Position numbers and translations under genes: made by a program. The notes under the pieces were generated by a model. The model saw only the letters and a list, made by a program, of their open reading frames with translations. It was not told the DNA's origin and ran no database searches. A DNA stretch of 64,000 nucleotides from Gemmatimonadota bacterium (GTDB taxonomy: Bacteria; Gemmatimonadota; Gemmatimonadetes; Gemmatimonadales; GWC2-71-9). Positions 31,401 to 40,789 of this stretch are shown one piece after another. Where the stretch lies: positions 1,524,296-1,588,295 of the forward strand of contig PNAE01000007.1 in assembly GCA_003169895.1 (NCBI GenBank), given 5' to 3'. Every line of letters begins with the position of its first letter. The stretch's first letter is position 1.

Positions 31401-33980
31401 ATGCCTGACCCCGCCGGTCCCGGCGGCGAACGTCCGCTCAGCGAGGCGATGCGCCACCGGCAGCAGTACGCCGGATTGATTGGTGTCGCGTCCAAGATGC
31501 GCATCACCGATGCCAGCGTGCTCAGCACGATCTACACGCCCGGTGTCGCCCAGCCGTGTCTCGACATCCAGAAATCCCCGGTGGAGTCATTCGCGCAGAC
31601 GATGCGCGGCAACACCGTCGCGATCGTCTCCGACGGCTCCGCCGCCTTCGGACTCGGCATGGTCGGCCCGGAGGCGATTCTTCCCGTCATGGAAGGGAAG
31701 AGCGTCGTGTTCAAGACCTTCGCCGGAGTCGACGCCCTTCCGATCTGCCTCAGCACGCATGACATCAGCGAAATCGTCGAGACCGTGATCGGCCTCGCCC
31801 CGACGTTCGGCGGCATCTGCCTGGAGGACATCGTCGCGCCGGCGTGCCTTACGATCGGCGAGGAATTGCAGCGCGCGATGAACATTCCGGTGATCAACAA
31901 TCACCGGGAAGCGGTGGCCGTCGGCGTACTCGCCGGCGTGCTCAACGCGCTCAAGATCGTGGACAAGAAGGCGGAGGCGGTCAAGGTCGTCATCAACGGC
32001 AGCGGTGCCGCCGGGATCGGGACCGCCGAGATGCTGCTCAGGATCGGGGTCCGCAACATCATCGTCTGCGACCGCCATGGCGCGCTGTCGCCATATCGAC
32101 CGCAGACGATGCACTGGGCCAAGTGGGAACTCGCCAAGAAGACCAATCCCGACCGGATGCGTGGCGATCTCGCGACCGTCATCACGGGCGCGGATCTGTT
32201 CATCGGGTTTTCCGTCGGTGACGTCGTCACGCCGGAGATGATCCGCAGTATGGCGATCCGGCCGATCGTCTTCGCGTTCGCGGGACCGGTGCCCGAAATC
32301 GAGCCGGCCGCGGCCTACGCCGCCGGTGCAGCGGTCGTGGCCACTGCGCAGTCGCAGTACGCCAACCAGATGGACATCGCGTCGGTGTTCCCGGGCCTCT
32401 TCCGCGGTTTGCTCGATGTTCGCGCCCGTCGGGTGAACGACCAGATGCTCCTCGCCGCCGCCGAGGCCTTGGCAGCCCTTGTGTCCGAAGATGAACTCTC
32501 CCACAACTATATCGTGCCCAAGGTGCTCGACTTCCGGGCGGCGCCGGCGATCGCGCAGGCCGTCGCCGCGGCGGCCATCGGCACGGGCGTCGCCAAGGTC
32601 GCGACGGATCCCGAATGGATCGCGGAACGCACCCGCCATTTCATTCGCGAGGGCCGCTTCCCGGTTCCGGAGCCGTCGGTTGACGACACCGCCTCCTACG
32701 CCGAGCAATCGGTGGACCTGCACCGGCGATACCAGGGCGTGCTCGAGATCAAGAGCAAGGTGCCGATCACCGACGACCACATCCTGAGCCTGTTCTACCT
32801 GCCGCCGGGCGCAGTTGAGCCGGCGGAGCGAATCGCGCAACACCCTGACTGGGTGTACGACTACACGATCAAGCGCAATCTCGTCGCCATTGTCTCGGAC
32901 GGCTCCGCGGTACTGGGCCTCGGCAACATCGGTGCCCGCGCCGCGATGCCGGTCATGGAAGGCAAGTCGGTCCTGTTCCATACCTTTGCCGGTGTCGAGG
33001 CATTCCCGATCTGCATCGCGACGCAGGATCCGGATGAAATTGTCGCGATCGTCAAGCGCCTGGAACCGACGTTCGGCGGCGTGAATCTGGAGGACATTTC
33101 CGCGCCGCGGTGTTTCCATATCGAGGAGCGCCTGAAGCGGGAGACGAGCATCCCGATCTTCCACGACGACCAGCATGGTACTGCGGTGGTGGTACTCGCC
33201 GGCGTGATGAACGCGTGCCGGGTCACTGGTCGGGCGTTGCGCGATCTCGCCATCGTGGTCAACGGCGCGGGCGCCAGCGCCATCGCGGTGAGCAAGTTGT
33301 TGATCAGCGTCGGCGTCGGCGACGTGGTTCTTTGCGACACCACGGGCACGATCTACCGGGGCCGCGCCAAGGGAATGAACCCGATCAAGGAAGAGATGGC
33401 GGCGATCACCAACCGGGGCGACGTGCGCGGCACGCTGGCCGACGCCATGCGCGGGCGCGACCTGTTCATCGGCCTGTCGGCGGCGGGTGCCGCCACGGCG
33501 GACATGGTGCGGAACATGAACCCGCACCCGATGGTGTTCGCGCTGGCCAATCCGACGCCGGAGATCTTTCCCGACGAGGCCAAGGGCGCCGGTGCTGCCA
33601 TCTGTGCCACAGGGCGCAGCGACCTGCCCAATCAGGTCAACAACTCGCTCGCATTTCCGGGCATCTTCCGGGGCGCGCTCGACACGCGTGCCCGGCAAAT
33701 CACCGATCCGATGAAGATCGCCGCGGCGCACGCGATCGCGGCGAGTGTCACCGAGGCCCAGCTGGGCCCGGATTTCATCATTCCCGGGGCGATGGATTTT
33801 TCGGTCGCACCACGCGTGGCGATGGCCGTCGCGCGCGTGGCAATGGAGAGCGGGGAGGCGCGGCAGACGGTGGAGCTCGCGGTCGTCGCGGCGCGCTGCC
33901 ACGGCTTTGCATACGAGGGCGGACGCCGGGCAGCCGAAGGCGGCGACACGCCCGACGCGCCCGGACCGGGGGTGCGCTAA
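31401..33980 (+). CDS. Tandem (two-module) malic enzyme; first module active-site degenerate, second canonical
   Basis: Module 1 ~31401-32690: YTPGVAQPCL...PVMEGKSVVFKTFAGVDALP...CLEDIVAP...IPVINNHREAVAVGVLAGVLNA...INGSGAAGIGTAEMLL. Module 2 ~32691-33980: PVMEGKSVLFHTFAGVEAFP...NLEDISAP...IPIFHDDQHGTAVVVLAGVMNA...NGAGASAIAVSKLL. Confidence 0.92.
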   Translation: MPDPAGPGGERPLSEAMRHRQQYAGLIGVASKMRITDASVLSTIYTPGVAQPCLDIQKSPVESFAQTMRGNTVAIVSDGSAAFGLGMVGPEAILPVMEGKSVVFKTFAGVDALPICLSTHDISEIVETVIGLAPTFGGICLEDIVAPACLTIGEELQRAMNIPVINNHREAVAVGVLAGVLNALKIVDKKAEAVKVVINGSGAAGIGTAEMLLRIGVRNIIVCDRHGALSPYRPQTMHWAKWELAKKTNPDRMRGDLATVITGADLFIGFSVGDVVTPEMIRSMAIRPIVFAFAGPVPEIEPAAAYAAGAAVVATAQSQYANQMDIASVFPGLFRGLLDVRARRVNDQMLLAAAEALAALVSEDELSHNYIVPKVLDFRAAPAIAQAVAAAAIGTGVAKVATDPEWIAERTRHFIREGRFPVPEPSVDDTASYAEQSVDLHRRYQGVLEIKSKVPITDDHILSLFYLPPGAVEPAERIAQHPDWVYDYTIKRNLVAIVSDGSAVLGLGNIGARAAMPVMEGKSVLFHTFAGVEAFPICIATQDPDEIVAIVKRLEPTFGGVNLEDISAPRCFHIEERLKRETSIPIFHDDQHGTAVVVLAGVMNACRVTGRALRDLAIVVNGAGASAIAVSKLLISVGVGDVVLCDTTGTIYRGRAKGMNPIKEEMAAITNRGDVRGTLADAMRGRDLFIGLSAAGAATADMVRNMNPHPMVFALANPTPEIFPDEAKGAGAAICATGRSDLPNQVNNSLAFPGIFRGALDTRARQITDPMKIAAAHAIAASVTEAQLGPDFIIPGAMDFSVAPRVAMAVARVAMESGEARQTVELAVVAARCHGFAYEGGRRAAEGGDTPDAPGPGVR

Positions 33981-33982
33981 CC
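33975..33982 (+). repeat. 8-bp target site duplication, left copy (CGCTAACC)
   Basis: Identical to 37990-37997; contains the malic enzyme TAA stop. Confidence 0.9.
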
Positions 33983-34010
33983 GGTGGTGGGTCACTTTGA
34001 GCCGTGACAA
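33983..34010 (+). repeat. Left terminal inverted repeat, 28 bp
   Basis: GGTGGTGGGTCACTTTGAGCCGTGACAA. Confidence 0.95.
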
Positions 34011-34147
34011 AGGGGGGCGTGGCGCGGTCCGTGAGACTGGGCTTCGGCGCGACGATATGCGCGTTCGGGGTCCTTTGATGGTCATTAATGGGAGGTACCG
34101 CCCTTGACGGGGAGCGCCTCTTGGTCGAAGCTACTGGTGTGGATAGA

Positions 34148-34165
34148 TTGTGAAAACGTTCACAA
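34148..34165. promoter_or_regulatory. Palindromic operator-like site upstream of passenger operon
   Basis: TTGTGAA-AACG-TTCACAA, immediately 5' of the RBS/GTG start at 34177. Confidence 0.5.
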
Positions 34166-34176
34166 AGGGAACACCA

Positions 34177-34458
34177 GTGGCTGATTCAGACGTACCCGAA
34201 CTTTACTGCGATGGTGCGCAGGTCGGGCTCACCCCTTTTACCGCCATACTCTCGCTGACGATGCAACCTTCGGGTCAGACGGGGCAGATGCCACCGACCA
34301 GGGTGGCGAATATCCGCATGAGCTTGGAGCACGCGAAGGTGATGGCAATCGTGCTTAAGAAGCAGATCAAGGCTTACGAAGCGCAAACTGGCGTCGATAT
34401 CCAGCTTCCCGCGCAGTTGTATCAGCAGCTCGGAATCAGCAAACAGGAGGACTGGTAA
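34177..34458 (+). CDS. DUF3467-like small protein
   Basis: MADSDVPELYCDGAQ...PPTRVANIRMSLEHAKVMAIVLKKQIKAYEAQTG resembles the MSPEHAKxLxxxLxxNIxxYE pattern of DUF3467. Confidence 0.6.
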   Translation: MADSDVPELYCDGAQVGLTPFTAILSLTMQPSGQTGQMPPTRVANIRMSLEHAKVMAIVLKKQIKAYEAQTGVDIQLPAQLYQQLGISKQEDW

Positions 34459-34459
34459 A

Positions 34460-34669
34460 ATGACACAGCTACAGAAAAACATTGAGGCGCCGGTGGAGTG
34501 GTCTCAGCCGCTCACGAATATGCCGTCGCGACACGCCAACCTAACAGAAACACTCGATGCTGTGATGCATGGGATCGCTCAGGCAGCGAGAGGCGAAGGT
34601 ACGCACATCGATCCTGATACGCTGCCGACCGATGACGACCGGAGGAATACTGACCGTCGCCGCAGCTAG
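34460..34669 (+). CDS. Small hypothetical protein, possible antitoxin position
   Basis: 69 aa ORF 1 nt after the previous stop; overlaps the next gene's GTG by one base. Confidence 0.55.
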   Translation: MTQLQKNIEAPVEWSQPLTNMPSRHANLTETLDAVMHGIAQAARGEGTHIDPDTLPTDDDRRNTDRRRS

Positions 34670-34983
34670 TGCCCGTCCCCGGCGCTCCGTTTCGCCTAAA
34701 GCTGACCCCTGACGCCGAGACGAGTTGGAATGCGTTGGCAACGAGCGATCAGGGAAAGTGGAAAAAGGTCAATAAGGCTCTAAAATACCTCAAGAACGAT
34801 CCAGGTCATCGGAGCCTAGCCGCACATAAATGGGATACACTTCGAGGCCGCGCACCGGATGGCGGAGATATTTGGACCGCCTACGCCGAAAACAATACAC
34901 CATCGGCGTGGCGCATCTTCTTCTTCTACGACAGCCGTGACCCCGGACTCATCTATGTCACCACGATAGAGCCGCATAGTTAG
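34669..34983 (+). CDS. RelE/ParE-superfamily-like protein (putative toxin)
   Basis: FRLKLTPDAETSWNALATSDQGKWKKVNKALKYLKNDPGHRSLAAHKW...IWTAYAENNTPSAWRIFFFYDSRDPGLIYVTTIEPH. Confidence 0.6.
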   Translation: MPVPGAPFRLKLTPDAETSWNALATSDQGKWKKVNKALKYLKNDPGHRSLAAHKWDTLRGRAPDGGDIWTAYAENNTPSAWRIFFFYDSRDPGLIYVTTIEPHS

Positions 34984-35840
34984 TTACCCACCAACACGCT
35001 CCCATCCATCATCGCAATCAGATCATCCGCCGTCCACAACCGATCCGCCAACTTTGACGCCATCGCTGGCGACGTGTGGACGCCGTTCGCGGCCTTGGTC
35101 AATGTCCGCTGCACCTTGCAGTAATTGTATGAGAAGAACGTCAATGCCAGCGCCGCCGCGTGGTTCTCGTGCTTACGGCTGAATCCATTGGACAGCCGGG
35201 TCATGCGACGGCAATTCATCCGGGTATTGAGGTTCACCCGCTCAACGAAGCTGGTGCTGACCTTCGCCATGTTCGGGCGGCCGATCATGCGGACCTTCTT
35301 GGCCCCGGTGCAAATCGGCGGGGAGTAGCGCCGTGACGTGACGTTCTCCTGTGCCTGGCCGTAGCTCTCTTGCAGGACCGCGAAGTCACACTTCGCAAAC
35401 GCGAAGGCCGCACGCACGGCGTGAGGATATGGCTGCCATCCATCGCTCGTGAGCTGGACGCGAGTCGAGACGCGCTCGGCAATGTCCTTGACGAAAGCAA
35501 AGGTGTTCTCAGGCGTCCGTGCACCGACGAGCCAGCTAAAGAGCAGCTTGGTCTCGGCGTCGATTCCCGCGAACACCCAAACGTCCCCTTGTCCCGGCAG
35601 CTTCGCGTTGCGCTGCTTGCTGCCGATGTAGCCCCACTGCTCATCGACCTGCGCCTCTTTCACCGGCAGGTTCCGAAACCGATAGTCCGAGAACACTTCG
35701 CAGAACGTCCCAGCCTCAACTAGCAGGTTCAGGACGGTGCGCTTGGCCGCGCCCGTGACGCGGCAGGTGGCCCGGACGCCCATGCCATCCATCAGGCACC
35801 GGACGATCATGGAGCGGGTGGTAGCGGGTAGCTTGTTCAT
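34980..35840 (-). CDS. IS1-like DDE transposase
   Basis: MNKLPATTRSMIVRCLMDGMGVRATCRVTGAAKRTVLNLL; QVDEQWGYI; FAGIDAETKLLFSWLVGART; LTSDGWQPY; SFVERVNLNTRMNCRRMTRLSNGFSRKHENHAAALALTFFSYNYC. Confidence 0.85.
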   Translation of the reverse strand: MNKLPATTRSMIVRCLMDGMGVRATCRVTGAAKRTVLNLLVEAGTFCEVFSDYRFRNLPVKEAQVDEQWGYIGSKQRNAKLPGQGDVWVFAGIDAETKLLFSWLVGARTPENTFAFVKDIAERVSTRVQLTSDGWQPYPHAVRAAFAFAKCDFAVLQESYGQAQENVTSRRYSPPICTGAKKVRMIGRPNMAKVSTSFVERVNLNTRMNCRRMTRLSNGFSRKHENHAAALALTFFSYNYCKVQRTLTKAANGVHTSPAMASKLADRLWTADDLIAMMDGSVLVGN

Positions 35841-35851
35841 GGAATAAATAT

Positions 35852-35922
35852 ACCTACCCCCTAGGCATATTGTCAATACCTACCCCATAGGTATTGACAG
35901 CGAAGTGCCTACCCCCTAAGTT
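35852..35922. promoter_or_regulatory. Divergent promoter pair with central 29-bp palindrome and three CCTACCCCnTA operator-like copies
   Basis: Palindrome TGTCAATACCTA-CCCCA-TAGGTATTGACA (35871-35899); leftward TTGACA-18-TATATT; rightward TTGACA-17-TAAGTT; extra copies at 35851-35867 and 35908-35922. Confidence 0.75.
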
Positions 35923-35947
35923 CTGGCATCACCCAAGCGGAGGGCTC

Positions 35948-37033
35948 ATGGCGAAAGACAAGTCCAGCGGAGAATACGGGGCGGAGGGGGGACGCAAGCG
36001 GGCCGAGCGGCTCTCCAAAGATCAGCTCACGGAAATTGGCCGGAAGGGGGCACTCGCCCGTTGGGCCAAGGAGGGCAAGGAGGTAAATGAGCCAATCCCG
36101 GCCGTCTACGGATCTCCGGATAGCCCGTTGCGGCTGAACGGAGTGGAAATCCCCTGCTACGTGTTGGCTGACGGGCGCAGAGTGATCACACAGCGCGGGT
36201 TGCAGCAGGCTTTGGGGCTGTCCACTGGCGGCGGAAGTCGCGGCGCGCGGCGGATACCGGCTCTAATCGCCAACTTGCGGCGCAAAGGATTAGATGTCAA
36301 AGACTTAGCCGCGCGCAGCGACAACGACATTCGATTCTTGCCACCGAAGAAAGGCGGCAATCCGGCGCTTGCCTATGAGGCGGACATCCTCGAAGGACTT
36401 TGCACTGCGCTGATTGATGCGGACAAGGGCGGAAAGCTGGCGTCCAATCAGAAGGGCCTCGGGGAGCGCGCGCGCATCCTTCACCGTGGTTTCGCCAAGG
36501 TCGGCGTCATCGCACTGGTTGATGAGGCTACAGGCTATCAGAAGGATAGACCGAATCACGCGCTGGCTGAGATCCTCGACGCATTCATTGCGAAGGAATT
36601 GCGCCCGTGGGTGCGCCGATTCCCCTTCGAGTTCTATCAGGAAATCTTCCGACTCAAGCAGTGGGATACTTCTGACCTTACACCCAACTCACCCAAGCCT
36701 ATCGAGGTCGGAAAGATCACCGTTGACCTCATCTACAGGCGGCTCGCGCCGGGTGTTCGGAACGGACTTACCAAGCTCACCCCCCGAAGCGAAAAGGGAT
36801 ACCTAACGACAAAGCTTCATCGGTGGCTCTCCTCTGACGTGGGAGACCCGAAGATGGAGGCGCTTATCGGCAAAGTGGTGACTGTGATGAAGCTTTCCGA
36901 CGACTGGCCGGACTTCATGCGGAAGATGGAGAAGGCTGGAATACAGCGGGTCAGCGATAACCTGGAGTTGCAGTTTCCCGAGCCGCGCCGCTTATTCCCC
37001 GGCGCGACTACTGCCGCTGATCTAGCGTCCTAG
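35948..37033 (+). CDS. P63C domain-containing protein
   Basis: MAKDKSSGEYGAEGGRKRAERLSKDQLTEIGRKGALARWAKEG; VGVIALVDEATGYQKDRPNHALAEILDAFIAKELRPWVRRFPFEFYQEIFRLKQW. Confidence 0.85.
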   Translation: MAKDKSSGEYGAEGGRKRAERLSKDQLTEIGRKGALARWAKEGKEVNEPIPAVYGSPDSPLRLNGVEIPCYVLADGRRVITQRGLQQALGLSTGGGSRGARRIPALIANLRRKGLDVKDLAARSDNDIRFLPPKKGGNPALAYEADILEGLCTALIDADKGGKLASNQKGLGERARILHRGFAKVGVIALVDEATGYQKDRPNHALAEILDAFIAKELRPWVRRFPFEFYQEIFRLKQWDTSDLTPNSPKPIEVGKITVDLIYRRLAPGVRNGLTKLTPRSEKGYLTTKLHRWLSSDVGDPKMEALIGKVVTVMKLSDDWPDFMRKMEKAGIQRVSDNLELQFPEPRRLFPGATTAADLAS

Positions 37034-37038
37034 AAACC

Positions 37039-37182
37039 CTAGCGGCGCTTGCTGGCCTTCTTAGCGCCCTTCGGCTTGGCCGGTGGGCGCTTGGGCTTCT
37101 CCCCGGTCAACCGGGCCAGCACGTCATGGGCAGCGAGGTTGGGGTCAGTGTGGCGCTTGGGCTTCGTAGGCTTTTGGGGCAT
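37039..37182 (-). CDS. 47-aa very basic peptide
   Basis: Manual minus-strand translation: MPQKPTKPKRHTDPNLAAHDVLARLTGEKPKRPPAKPKGAKKASKRR*. Confidence 0.55.
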   Translation of the reverse strand: MPQKPTKPKRHTDPNLAAHDVLARLTGEKPKRPPAKPKGAKKASKRR

Positions 37183-37232
37183 CAGCGGAGGGAATCCTTG
37201 TAGGTCTGGATCTGAGTGGCGAGCAACGAGGA

Positions 37233-37871
37233 CTAGGGCTTCTCGTAGAGCATACTGTCGGGAAAGATGGTCGCTAGGAAGAGTCGGAGCGAGGCCAGAT
37301 TCTTGAGGTTGACCTTGCCCTCTTTGTAGCCCCGGCTCCCGTAGAGGCGCCAGACGAGCGAGTCAGCCCTGGCGATCGCAAACATCTGTTGCGGCGTAAC
37401 CGCAAAGAGCGCCGATTCGCTTACGCTGCTATGTCCCGACGCGCTGGCCGTCGCATAGCATCCACTGGCGTCCGTTTGCGGCGGCGCCAGAGGCGAAAAG
37501 GTCGTCGGCTCGCCATTGATCAAGAGGCCGAACGCGTCGCCATCGCGCGGCATGAACATCCAAGCGGTTCCGCAATATTCGAGGTCGAAGGCAAACGTCG
37601 TGTCGCCCTGCCGACTGATGGATCGCCGCCAGGCTAGCGAAATGACGTCGGTGCACACGCCAAGCGCCGCGCCCAATCCGTTGCAATTGATCCGGGCGAG
37701 ATCTCTGGGGTGGGTCACCAGCTTCGCCGTCCCGGTGAATCGGTCGACCTCGCTGACTTCGAAATCCTGCTTGGAGTGGACGTCGAGCGGGGCGAGCCGG
37801 CGTGGGGCAGCCTTTTGCGCCGAAAGCGGAACGCAGGCAAGCGCGAGGAGGATTAGGCTCCATCGCTTCAA
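37233..37871 (-). CDS. Secreted hypothetical protein (transposon passenger)
   Basis: Signal peptide MKRWSLILLALACVPLSAQ; 212 aa. Confidence 0.7.
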   Translation of the reverse strand: MKRWSLILLALACVPLSAQKAAPRRLAPLDVHSKQDFEVSEVDRFTGTAKLVTHPRDLARINCNGLGAALGVCTDVISLAWRRSISRQGDTTFAFDLEYCGTAWMFMPRDGDAFGLLINGEPTTFSPLAPPQTDASGCYATASASGHSSVSESALFAVTPQQMFAIARADSLVWRLYGSRGYKEGKVNLKNLASLRLFLATIFPDSMLYEKP

Positions 37872-37961
37872 TTGATTCTCCGTTGACGGGGTCGCGCGAT
37901 CATGGAATCAGCCGATTGAGCATCCGTCAAAACTAGCGCCCCCATAGCTAGGGGGGGCGGA

Positions 37962-37989
37962 TTGTCACGGCTCAAAGTGACCCACCACC
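37962..37989 (-). repeat. Right terminal inverted repeat, 28 bp
   Basis: TTGTCACGGCTCAAAGTGACCCACCACC, exact reverse complement of 33983-34010. Confidence 0.95.
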
Positions 37990-37997
37990 CGCTAACC
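37990..37997 (+). repeat. 8-bp target site duplication, right copy (CGCTAACC)
   Basis: Identical to 33975-33982. Confidence 0.9.
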
Positions 37998-38020: not shown

Positions 38021-40789
38021 TTGTCGGTTCGCCCTACTTCACATGCCGCGGGTGGTCCCGTGCCGGGCACACCGACCGTTCTTGTCTCGGAGCTGGCTGA
38101 CCGGTATACGATCGAGCGCGAACTCGGCCGCGGCGCCACCGCCGTCGTGTACCTTGCTCGTGATCGCACGGCAGATCGGCTGGTGGCGCTGAAGGTGCTC
38201 CGGCCCGAACTGGCCGAGTCGCTGAGCGCTGACCGGTTCGTGCGCGAGATTCGCGTCACCCAGCAACTGTCACATCCGCATATCGCCCCGGTGCTCGACT
38301 CTGGCGTCGCCGGCGGCCTGTTCTTCTGCGTCCTCCGATACATGGACGGCGGCACACTGCGCGCGCGCCTCGACCGCGACCGCCAGCTCCCGCTGGCGCA
38401 GGTCTCGGCGATTGCGCGGGCGGTTGGCGCGGCGCTGGATTGCGCGCACGCGCAGAAGATCATTCATCGTGACGTGAAACCCGAGAACATCCTCTTCGGC
38501 GATGGTCAGGCGTGCCTCGCGGACTTCGGCATCGCCCGGGCGCTCGAGAGTGCGGGGGACACCACCACGTCCACCGGCGTGGTTCGTGGCACCCCGGCCT
38601 ACATGAGCCCCGAACAGGCGAGCGGCGAGCGGGACTACGACGGCCGCTCCGATATCTACAGCCTGGCGTGCGTGCTGTACGAGGCAATCGCGGGAATGCC
38701 CGCGTTCGTGGGGCCAAACGCGCAGGCAGTGCTGGCGCAGCGGCTCATCCACGTTCCGCGTCCGCTCGGCGTCTATCGCCCGACGGTCACGGCCGAGCTC
38801 GAAACGGTGATGGCGCGCGCACTCGCCATGGCGCCGGCGGACCGGTTTCAGACCGCGGAGGAGTTCACCAACGCGTTGTGTTCAGCGATCGAAGCACCGG
38901 TTTCCGGAGATGCCGCGTCGGCGGGACGCCTCGCGGCAGGCACTTGGGACAAGCCGGTCCGGTGGCGGCAGTGGATCTGGGGTGCGGGACTCGTGGCGAC
39001 GGCCCTGGTCGCTTTGATGCTCGGACCATTTCGCGGTCGGGGGCCGTGGGTGTCGGACGCATCGCGCGCCCGGCGGGAATGGACCCGCGGGCAGCACGCT
39101 CTGGATTCCTGGCAGTTCGTTGACGCGGACACTGCCTTCACCCGCGCCATGGCGCTTGACACGGCATTCCCGCAGCCGGCCCTCGCGTTGGCATTGGTGC
39201 GGTCGTGGTCCGGCGAGCCCGTCAGTCGCTGGCGGGTGCCGCTCGATCGCGCCAGCGCGCACGCCGCACGGCTCGCGCCGCGCGACGTGGTCATCGCCGG
39301 CGCACTGGATGCACAAGGAGACAAGGCGTGGGATCGCGCGTGTCCGGCGTGGCGCACGCTGGCCACCGCGGACCATACCGACTTCACCGCATGGTACGGT
39401 CTGGCCCGTTGCCTGGGCGCGGACGACGTGGTTCTGCGCGACCCGGACTCGCCATCCGGTTGGCGGTTTCGGGCCAGCGGCCAGGAGATGGTTCAGGCGT
39501 ATCGGAGAGCGTTCGAGCTGCACGCCACGATTCCGACTGCGAGTCGGATCGGCGGTTTCGAACAAGTTCGAGATCTGTTCTATACCCGCAGCGACCAGCG
39601 GCGTCGCGGCGTCTCCTCGCCAGGGGGTGCCTTGATGTTGGCTGATCCGGACTGGGTCGGTGACACACTGGCCTTCATCCCCTTTGAATATGAAGCAGCG
39701 GTGACTGGCGCGGAGGGATTCCGGTCCGCGACGATCCGCGAAGCACTCATTCAGCAACGGCGTCTGCTCCAGGAAATCGCCGCGTCGTGGGTAAGTGCTG
39801 CTCCGACGAGTCCGGGAGCGCTCGAGTCTCTCGCCTTTGCGATGAAGCTTGTCGGCGAGCCATCGGCGTTGGACACCCTTCGGCGGGCCCGGTCACTCGC
39901 GGTGACCGCTGCGGACCGAGTCCGTCTCGCTGCGGCGGAAGTCTGGTTCAAGCTCACCCTCGCGGTGCCGGATGACTCGGCGGGGCTTCGCCGCGTGCGG
40001 GTGTTGGCCGATTCGATCCTCGCCGACACCAGGGACGGTGACCCGGCGGTACTGGAAGGCGTCGCGGCTTTGCTTGGGCGGGCGGCACTTGCGGCGCAAT
40101 TGAGCCGAGCTGCCAGCGCCGGCCTGCCGCCGCCCGTTCCGGTCGATGCCGCTCCATTGCTGGCCTACGCGGCGCTCGGTGGTCCGGTCGATAGCATTCG
40201 ACGGCTGGAGCCAGCGGTTGCTGCGGCGATCGATGCCACGGTCCTCAAGCGGGAGCAACCGCGAGTGCGCCAGCAGTGGCTCCAGCACGCCGCGGAGATC
40301 TCGTATCCCGACGTTGAGCTCGCCGAACTCGAACGACCCAACCACGAAGGTGATCCCCTGCTTGCCGCGCAGGCGGCGTTCGCGGGTGGTCGTGCCGACG
40401 TCGCACGCCGATATTTGGCGCGGAGACCTTCCGAGGTCAGCTTCATCGCACCGGAAAACCTTTCGCTCGATGGCCTCTATCCAGAGGCCCGCCTGTTCGT
40501 GCTCCTCGGCGATAGCATCGGCGCCGCCAACTGGCTCGACCCAACACTGCACGCCATTGCCCGCATGGATCCACAGGTACTCGCGCGCCTCACGAACGCC
40601 GCCGCACTGGTACGCGCCGCAGCGCTTCGCGCCGATCTCGCCGCCGCTGCGCACGACCAGCTTACCGCCGCGCGATGGGCGCGCGTCGTCACAATCCTCT
40701 GGTCAGGCGCCGACCCGTTCCTGCAACCGCTGGTCCACCGCATGGGGCAACTCGCCCAAGCATCGAATCCCGATCCGGGGAGGCAATGA
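38021..40789 (+). CDS. Serine/threonine protein kinase with large C-terminal region
   Basis: YTIERELGRGATAVVYLARDRTADRLVALKVLRPEL; IIHRDVKPENILF; LADFGIARA; RGTPAYMSPEQASG; start codon uncertain (TTG 38021). Confidence 0.92.
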   Translation: MSVRPTSHAAGGPVPGTPTVLVSELADRYTIERELGRGATAVVYLARDRTADRLVALKVLRPELAESLSADRFVREIRVTQQLSHPHIAPVLDSGVAGGLFFCVLRYMDGGTLRARLDRDRQLPLAQVSAIARAVGAALDCAHAQKIIHRDVKPENILFGDGQACLADFGIARALESAGDTTTSTGVVRGTPAYMSPEQASGERDYDGRSDIYSLACVLYEAIAGMPAFVGPNAQAVLAQRLIHVPRPLGVYRPTVTAELETVMARALAMAPADRFQTAEEFTNALCSAIEAPVSGDAASAGRLAAGTWDKPVRWRQWIWGAGLVATALVALMLGPFRGRGPWVSDASRARREWTRGQHALDSWQFVDADTAFTRAMALDTAFPQPALALALVRSWSGEPVSRWRVPLDRASAHAARLAPRDVVIAGALDAQGDKAWDRACPAWRTLATADHTDFTAWYGLARCLGADDVVLRDPDSPSGWRFRASGQEMVQAYRRAFELHATIPTASRIGGFEQVRDLFYTRSDQRRRGVSSPGGALMLADPDWVGDTLAFIPFEYEAAVTGAEGFRSATIREALIQQRRLLQEIAASWVSAAPTSPGALESLAFAMKLVGEPSALDTLRRARSLAVTAADRVRLAAAEVWFKLTLAVPDDSAGLRRVRVLADSILADTRDGDPAVLEGVAALLGRAALAAQLSRAASAGLPPPVPVDAAPLLAYAALGGPVDSIRRLEPAVAAAIDATVLKREQPRVRQQWLQHAAEISYPDVELAELERPNHEGDPLLAAQAAFAGGRADVARRYLARRPSEVSFIAPENLSLDGLYPEARLFVLLGDSIGAANWLDPTLHAIARMDPQVLARLTNAAALVRAAALRADLAAAAHDQLTAARWARVVTILWSGADPFLQPLVHRMGQLAQASNPDPGRQ

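Follow-up and report, generated by a model that had tools for sequence, protein, structure and literature searches.

In a 64,000-nucleotide stretch of a Gemmatimonadota bacterium (assembly GCA_003169895.1, contig PNAE01000007.1; hereafter the window), a transposon of 4,007 bp was identified directly behind a malic-enzyme gene. We consider it very likely that this DDE transposon is complete and belongs to a group related to IS1 that has a single open reading frame (ORF) for the transposase, acting as a transporter insertion sequence (IS) with a conserved shell and exchangeable cargo slots. As defines a transporter IS, it holds one transposase within a unit bounded by terminal inverted repeats (TIRs), and its passengers are unrelated to transposition. 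As far as can be read from the sequences, its boundaries, the duplication at its target, a shell found family-wide and the replacement of cargo are well established.

Boundaries of the element

The unit is bounded by perfect 28-bp TIRs and a perfect 8-bp target duplication, both of which were read directly. The repeat GGTGGTGGGTCACTTTGAGCCGTGACAA at 33983-34010 returns as its exact reverse complement at 37962-37989, and the duplication CGCTAACC stands at 33975-33982 and at 37990-37997 with no mismatch. An earlier reading of the letters by a model (the sequence-only reading) had proposed these coordinates and this length, and had taken the whole for one mobile unit with passengers; the former were borne out exactly, the latter by the ends, the sole transposase ORF and the profile matches. 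The 28-bp repeat occurs twice in the window, where shuffled sequence gives an expectation of 0, and these are its only occurrences in the whole 3.42-Mb genome, so that the element is single-copy. The G+C content of the unit is 59.7%, versus 65.3% for the window. Its features, with those assigned by a profile hidden Markov model (HMM) marked as such, are:

33975-33982, no strand: target-site duplication, left copy CGCTAACC, with which the malic-enzyme gene ends (final codon and stop) (sequence)
33983-34010, + strand: TIR, downstream end relative to the transposase (sequence; aligns with the family consensus GGTAGTGGGTCAGTTTGAA)
34150-34458, + strand: DUF3467-like protein, 102 aa, first of a three-gene set (Pfam DUF3467, E 3e-5)
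34460-34669, + strand: 69-aa ORF, likely antitoxin (directly upstream of the RelE-like gene; 1-base overlap with the next gene)
34669-34983, + strand: RelE/ParE-like protein, 104 aa, likely toxin (gene-pair context of homologues)
34980-35840, - strand: transposase, 286 aa, helix-turn-helix (HTH) and IS1-type DDE domain, single ORF (Pfam, NCBIfam, alignment)
35948-37033, + strand: P63C-domain protein, 361 aa (Pfam P63C, E 1.1e-24, 87.3 bits, cutoff 26.1; PHROG 2384, 2.5e-87)
37039-37182, - strand: small basic accessory protein of the shell, truncated, 47 aa (accessory HMM, E 1e-9; alignment)
37233-37871, - strand: orphan 212-aa protein with a signal-peptide-like N-terminus (no family match)
37962-37989, - strand: TIR, upstream end relative to the transposase (sequence)
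37990-37997, no strand: target-site duplication, right copy CGCTAACC (sequence)

An IS1-type transposase

The transposase ORF is the only one in the unit and is intact. Between the two families left open by the sequence-only reading, IS1 and IS1595, profile searches point to the IS1 type: Pfam DDE_Tnp_IS1 was matched with an E of 1.8e-9 (38.5 bits, cutoff 24.1), and the IS1595 domain DDE_Tnp_ISXO2 gave no match at E<=1. NCBIfam transpos_IS1 was matched as well (E 3.5e-17), over profile positions 43-169 only; positions 1-42, the N-terminal zinc-finger part, were without a match in the window transposase. As one ORF, this transposase departs from the classical two-ORF InsA/InsB' frameshift layout. 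The residues D66, D133 and E200 are invariant in 17 aligned transposases including that of the window, and are likely the catalytic ones. IS1-family elements have ends of the GGnnnTG type and duplications of 8-9 bp; the window end, GGTGGTG, fits this form. Annotated plasmids list relatives under the name ‘IS1 family transposase’.

In viral contigs, no transposase of this kind was confirmed. A distant unannotated homologue (33% to a Mesorhizobium query) was seen in the jumbo phage Brevundimonas phage Gurke (L254 3501-4376), where neither recognisable ends nor an accessory gene was found.

A family of units with common ends

Relatives of the transposase were detected in 38 of the 399 genomes of the phylum, and their surroundings yielded 15 further complete units of 2.1-3.7 kb with paired ends and a target duplication. 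Scanning a single genome from each species gave at least 545 relatives; among the best 80 of these lay 62 complete units, 59 of them new. Units were accepted by transposase similarity plus an exact target duplication of 7-10 bp. Altogether, other elements with related borders, as suggested by the sequence-only reading, amount to 74, and with the window's unit the family counts 75 members.

The 75 units have a median size of 3.2 kb (range 1.5-6.7 kb), and nearly all of the 74 further ones carry passenger genes. The target duplication is 8 bp long in 72 units and 9 bp in three. Their terminal consensus is GGTAGTGGGTCAGTTTGAA, in which G1, G2 and T6 are present in all 150 ends and G7 in 149. When the sequences were reversed as a control, none of 80 loci had both GGnnnTG ends and a duplication of at least 8 bp, versus 61 of the 80 real ones. 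The hosts belong to Pseudomonadota, Acidobacteriota, Verrucomicrobiota, Planctomycetota, Actinomycetota, Chloroflexota, Nitrospirota, Bdellovibrionota, Rhodothermota and Myxococcota, among others, thus to at least 10 phyla beyond Gemmatimonadota, and three annotated plasmids carry complete units.

At the extremes of size, unit L114 (1,504 bp) has no accessory gene and holds a small ORF that is XRE-like by eye, and the 6.7 kb of L118 may reflect wrongly paired ends. At L129 4115-9712, two head-to-tail units of ~2.8 kb each with the same ORF layout share one outer 8-bp duplication, which looks like a tandem insertion or a dimer.

The small basic accessory protein

Besides the ends and the transposase, the units have a small basic protein in common. 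The HMM built for it has the motif KRPRDxNQLAxxIVxxATGE ... GGxKGGKARAxxLTPExRxEIAxKAAxARW and matches an ORF in 71 of the 75 units; two more matches in read-through frames bring this to 73. Among 5,366 ORFs in 676 kb of flanks it had 0 matches. In 68 of the 71 units the gene lies on the strand of the transposase; its median distance to the upstream end is 75 bp. It was not found in L114 and L120, and the protein is truncated in the window, L054, L082, L095, L110 and L118.

The 47-aa ORF of the window, which had been counted among six cargo genes, corresponds to the N-terminal half of this protein, with the C-terminal GGKxRA...ARW half missing. As a truncated accessory copy, it is therefore a part of the shell; the other five ORFs are retained as cargo. 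No Pfam or NCBIfam family covers the accessory protein. Its model consists of three helices (predicted local distance difference test, pLDDT, 81; predicted template modelling score, pTM, 0.39), and the predicted fold had no match in the PDB. P63C proteins (e.g. window 35948-36090) begin with GGxxRAxxLTxExRxEIAxxAAxARW, the motif that ends the accessory protein.

One could also regard the small basic protein as cargo. It would then be passed on together with the transposase for a selective advantage of its own, as a nucleoid- or RNA-binding protein, and would not be a transposition factor. Its name ‘histone H1’ in one database record, the absences and truncations listed above and the motif in common with P63C proteins would agree with this. 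However, the gene is nearly universal, adjoins the end, keeps to the transposase strand and is retained while all else is swapped, and we hold this alternative to be rather unlikely.

Cargo across the family and its exchange

Cargo ORFs were chosen by a simple rule, with no gene finder. In a Pfam census of 138 of them, the leading families were XRE-type HTH (15), ImmA/IrrE peptidase (11) and P63C (9), followed by ClpP-like protease (4), N6-methylase (3) and, with two each, Fic, PemK, PIN, AbiEii-type AAA, Abi_2, nSTAND1 and GNAT. The PADLOC model PD-Lambda-2_B had 9 matches among the cargo; many cargo ORFs were without a family. An equal number of flanking ORFs gave housekeeping families, and in the top 25 listed of their 174 families these toxin-antitoxin and defence families were absent except GNAT. 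Compared to the flanking genes, the cargo is skewed to toxin-antitoxin and defence-like families.

Where transposases are 85-89% identical, pairs of units share DNA mainly in the ends and in the accessory and transposase genes, and the cargo is unrelated in the pairs L083/L126 and L097/L100. Mapped on the transposase tree, P63C requires 9 changes for 9 carriers and ImmA 8 for 9. Unrelated cargo beside transposases of this similarity, together with this many changes, indicates that the cargo between the shell genes has been replaced often. Recombination between the shell genes of different units would be the simplest route of this exchange.

A further possibility is that the cargo consists of neutral hitchhikers or leftovers of past recombination instead of addiction or defence modules. 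The many ORFs without a family and the orphan secreted protein in the window are compatible with it, but the strong toxin-antitoxin and defence skew and the approximately nine independent acquisitions of P63C speak against it, which makes it unlikely in our view.

Cargo of the window element

In the window, the DUF3467-like gene scored 24.3 bits, versus the Pfam cutoff of 25. The 104-aa protein, previously read as RelE/ParE-like, matched no Pfam RelE/ParE profile and nothing credible in the PDB, thus the family name found no support there; the assignment to a toxin-antitoxin type is favoured by gene-pair context. Homologues were detected in 14 further genomes of the phylum, and the best of them come second in a set of two genes, directly behind an ORF of ~90-130 aa. 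This ORF usually ends like MERALxQAxxGEFxDLGSFAQF, and its C-terminal stretch is similar to that of the 69-aa ORF. The small partner gene and the toxin-sized gene are kept as a pair in L149-L154. Altogether, this suggests that the 69-aa and RelE-like genes are likely a toxin-antitoxin type pair.

In the case of L149, from another genus of the same family, the order of the three genes is found again in a unit of 1,582 bp (L149 4808-6389) with ends of its own and the duplication TTACCAAG: a 97-aa ORF, an antitoxin-like ORF, a RelE-like gene and a transposase remnant. The 97-aa ORF, in the DUF3467-like position, had no Pfam match. L149 is a deletion derivative that kept its toxin-antitoxin-like cargo, and may be a non-autonomous element.

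The identity of the P63C gene, likewise named in the sequence-only reading, is confirmed by a Pfam score far over the cutoff. Relatives are present in 8 other complete units, and 351 in viral contigs. Its predicted fold (pLDDT 81, pTM 0.52) had no significant match in the PDB; with this and a pTM of only 0.52, no function can be derived from the fold. The gene of the 212-aa secreted protein has an unusual place, outward of the accessory gene and next to the upstream end, and has no relative in the 398 other genomes of the phylum.

That an ordinary IS1-type IS once captured neighbouring chromosomal genes in this lineage, the other units being alike only via their transposase, is highly improbable: the closest transposase found is indeed only 53% identical and the gene for the secreted protein is an orphan, but units that share these ends and the accessory gene and carry cargo are spread over the sampled lineages (ends common to 75 units, the shell gene to 73), which already disfavours a single capture, and the three-gene cargo recurs in L149.

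Surroundings of the insertion

The malic-enzyme gene upstream was left intact by the insertion because the 8-bp duplication supplies its last codon and stop. This gene (31401-33980, + strand) encodes 859 aa in which two malic-enzyme units are fused in tandem (malic and Malic_M twice each), and open frames of 856-859 aa with two matching halves are also present in genomes G142 and G029. Downstream, a gene for 922 aa (38021-40789, + strand) starts with a Ser/Thr kinase domain at the N-terminus, followed by a long C-terminal region that matches no Pfam family.

Copies with the same borders and empty sites were sought, as the sequence-only reading had proposed. The 28-bp repeat occurs in none of the 398 other genomes of the phylum, with up to 3 mismatches allowed. 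Malic-enzyme orthologues (76-81% identical) in three genomes of the same genus gave no clean empty site, since the downstream kinase does not adjoin them there. The recent movement that had been deduced from the perfect TIRs and duplication was thus not supported: the closest transposase found is 53% identical, and neither a second copy nor an empty site was found.

Proposed mechanism

Based on these observations, we propose that the shell, composed of ~20-bp matching ends, the transposase and the small basic accessory protein, is mobilised as a whole and would duplicate 8 bp at the target. The transposase would recognise both ends and insert the unit at an 8-bp target of little specificity. 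By analogy with InsA, which helps or limits transposition of IS1, the accessory protein is probably a DNA-binding factor that attaches near the ends, and it may assist or limit transposition. Two intervals would serve as cargo slots, one on each side of the transposase: the first reaches to the accessory gene, the second to the downstream end. In the window, these hold the P63C gene and the set of DUF3467-like, antitoxin-like and RelE-like genes, with the orphan secreted protein at the upstream end. Different elements would exchange cargo when their shell genes recombine, and the cargo may favour keeping the unit in its host through addiction or phage protection.

Several points weigh against this reading. 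The transposase reaches 63 bits in the NCBIfam IS1 equivalog, under its cutoff of 100 bits, and two relatives reach 71 and 54 bits. Movement was not seen, the element being single-copy and an empty site not found. As it is truncated here and absent in two units, the accessory protein may be dispensable. For the cargo, toxin and defence roles are read from the names of families and the order of genes. Finally, the proportions among the units are no census, because these were sampled by transposase similarity with a target duplication required.

Relation to known systems

IS1 with its InsA/InsB' is similar in its DDE domain, in the GGnnnTG form of its ends and in its 8-9 bp duplications. It differs in that the window element has a single 286-aa ORF with neither the N-terminal zinc-finger region nor a frameshift, and in that the present family measures 2-4 kb, with cargo and a separate small basic protein. 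The IS1 subgroup ISMhu11 in ISfinder includes elements able to exceed 4 kb, and a part of the present family may already be registered in ISfinder. In the open literature covered here, no description was found of IS1-type units that combine this accessory gene with such cargo.

Transporter ISs are known as a class and are best documented in the IS1595 family, e.g. tISCpe8 and MTnSag1/tISSag10 (PMC5704250). These likewise combine one DDE transposase, ~25-bp inverted repeats, a target duplication and passenger genes. Unlike them, the present element has an IS1-type transposase without a DDE_Tnp_ISXO2 match and no resistance gene, and in its family the accessory gene is conserved and the cargo varies.

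Transposons of the Tn3 family duplicate 5 bp at their target. Those with toxin-antitoxin passengers (PMC9330008) resemble the present element as unit transposons with cargo of this type. The element described here differs by another transposase, an 8-bp duplication and no resolution system seen.

Implications

Taken further, the data would fit phylum-spanning IS1-type cargo transposons that are moved by a two-gene shell, the transposase and a dedicated small DNA-binding protein as yet without annotation, and whose fixed slots exchange toxin-antitoxin and anti-phage cassettes between elements and hosts, a proposal for which we see the chances as evenly balanced. With the ends and the shell genes now defined, a computer search can pick out further members, and direct tests of what the accessory protein does have become feasible. 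By context, P63C, the XRE-ImmA pair and the DUF3467/RelE-like set become candidates for defence or addiction. If the proposal is true, short units with a single transposase would be an overlooked and very widespread route by which toxin-antitoxin and defence-like genes pass between bacteria.

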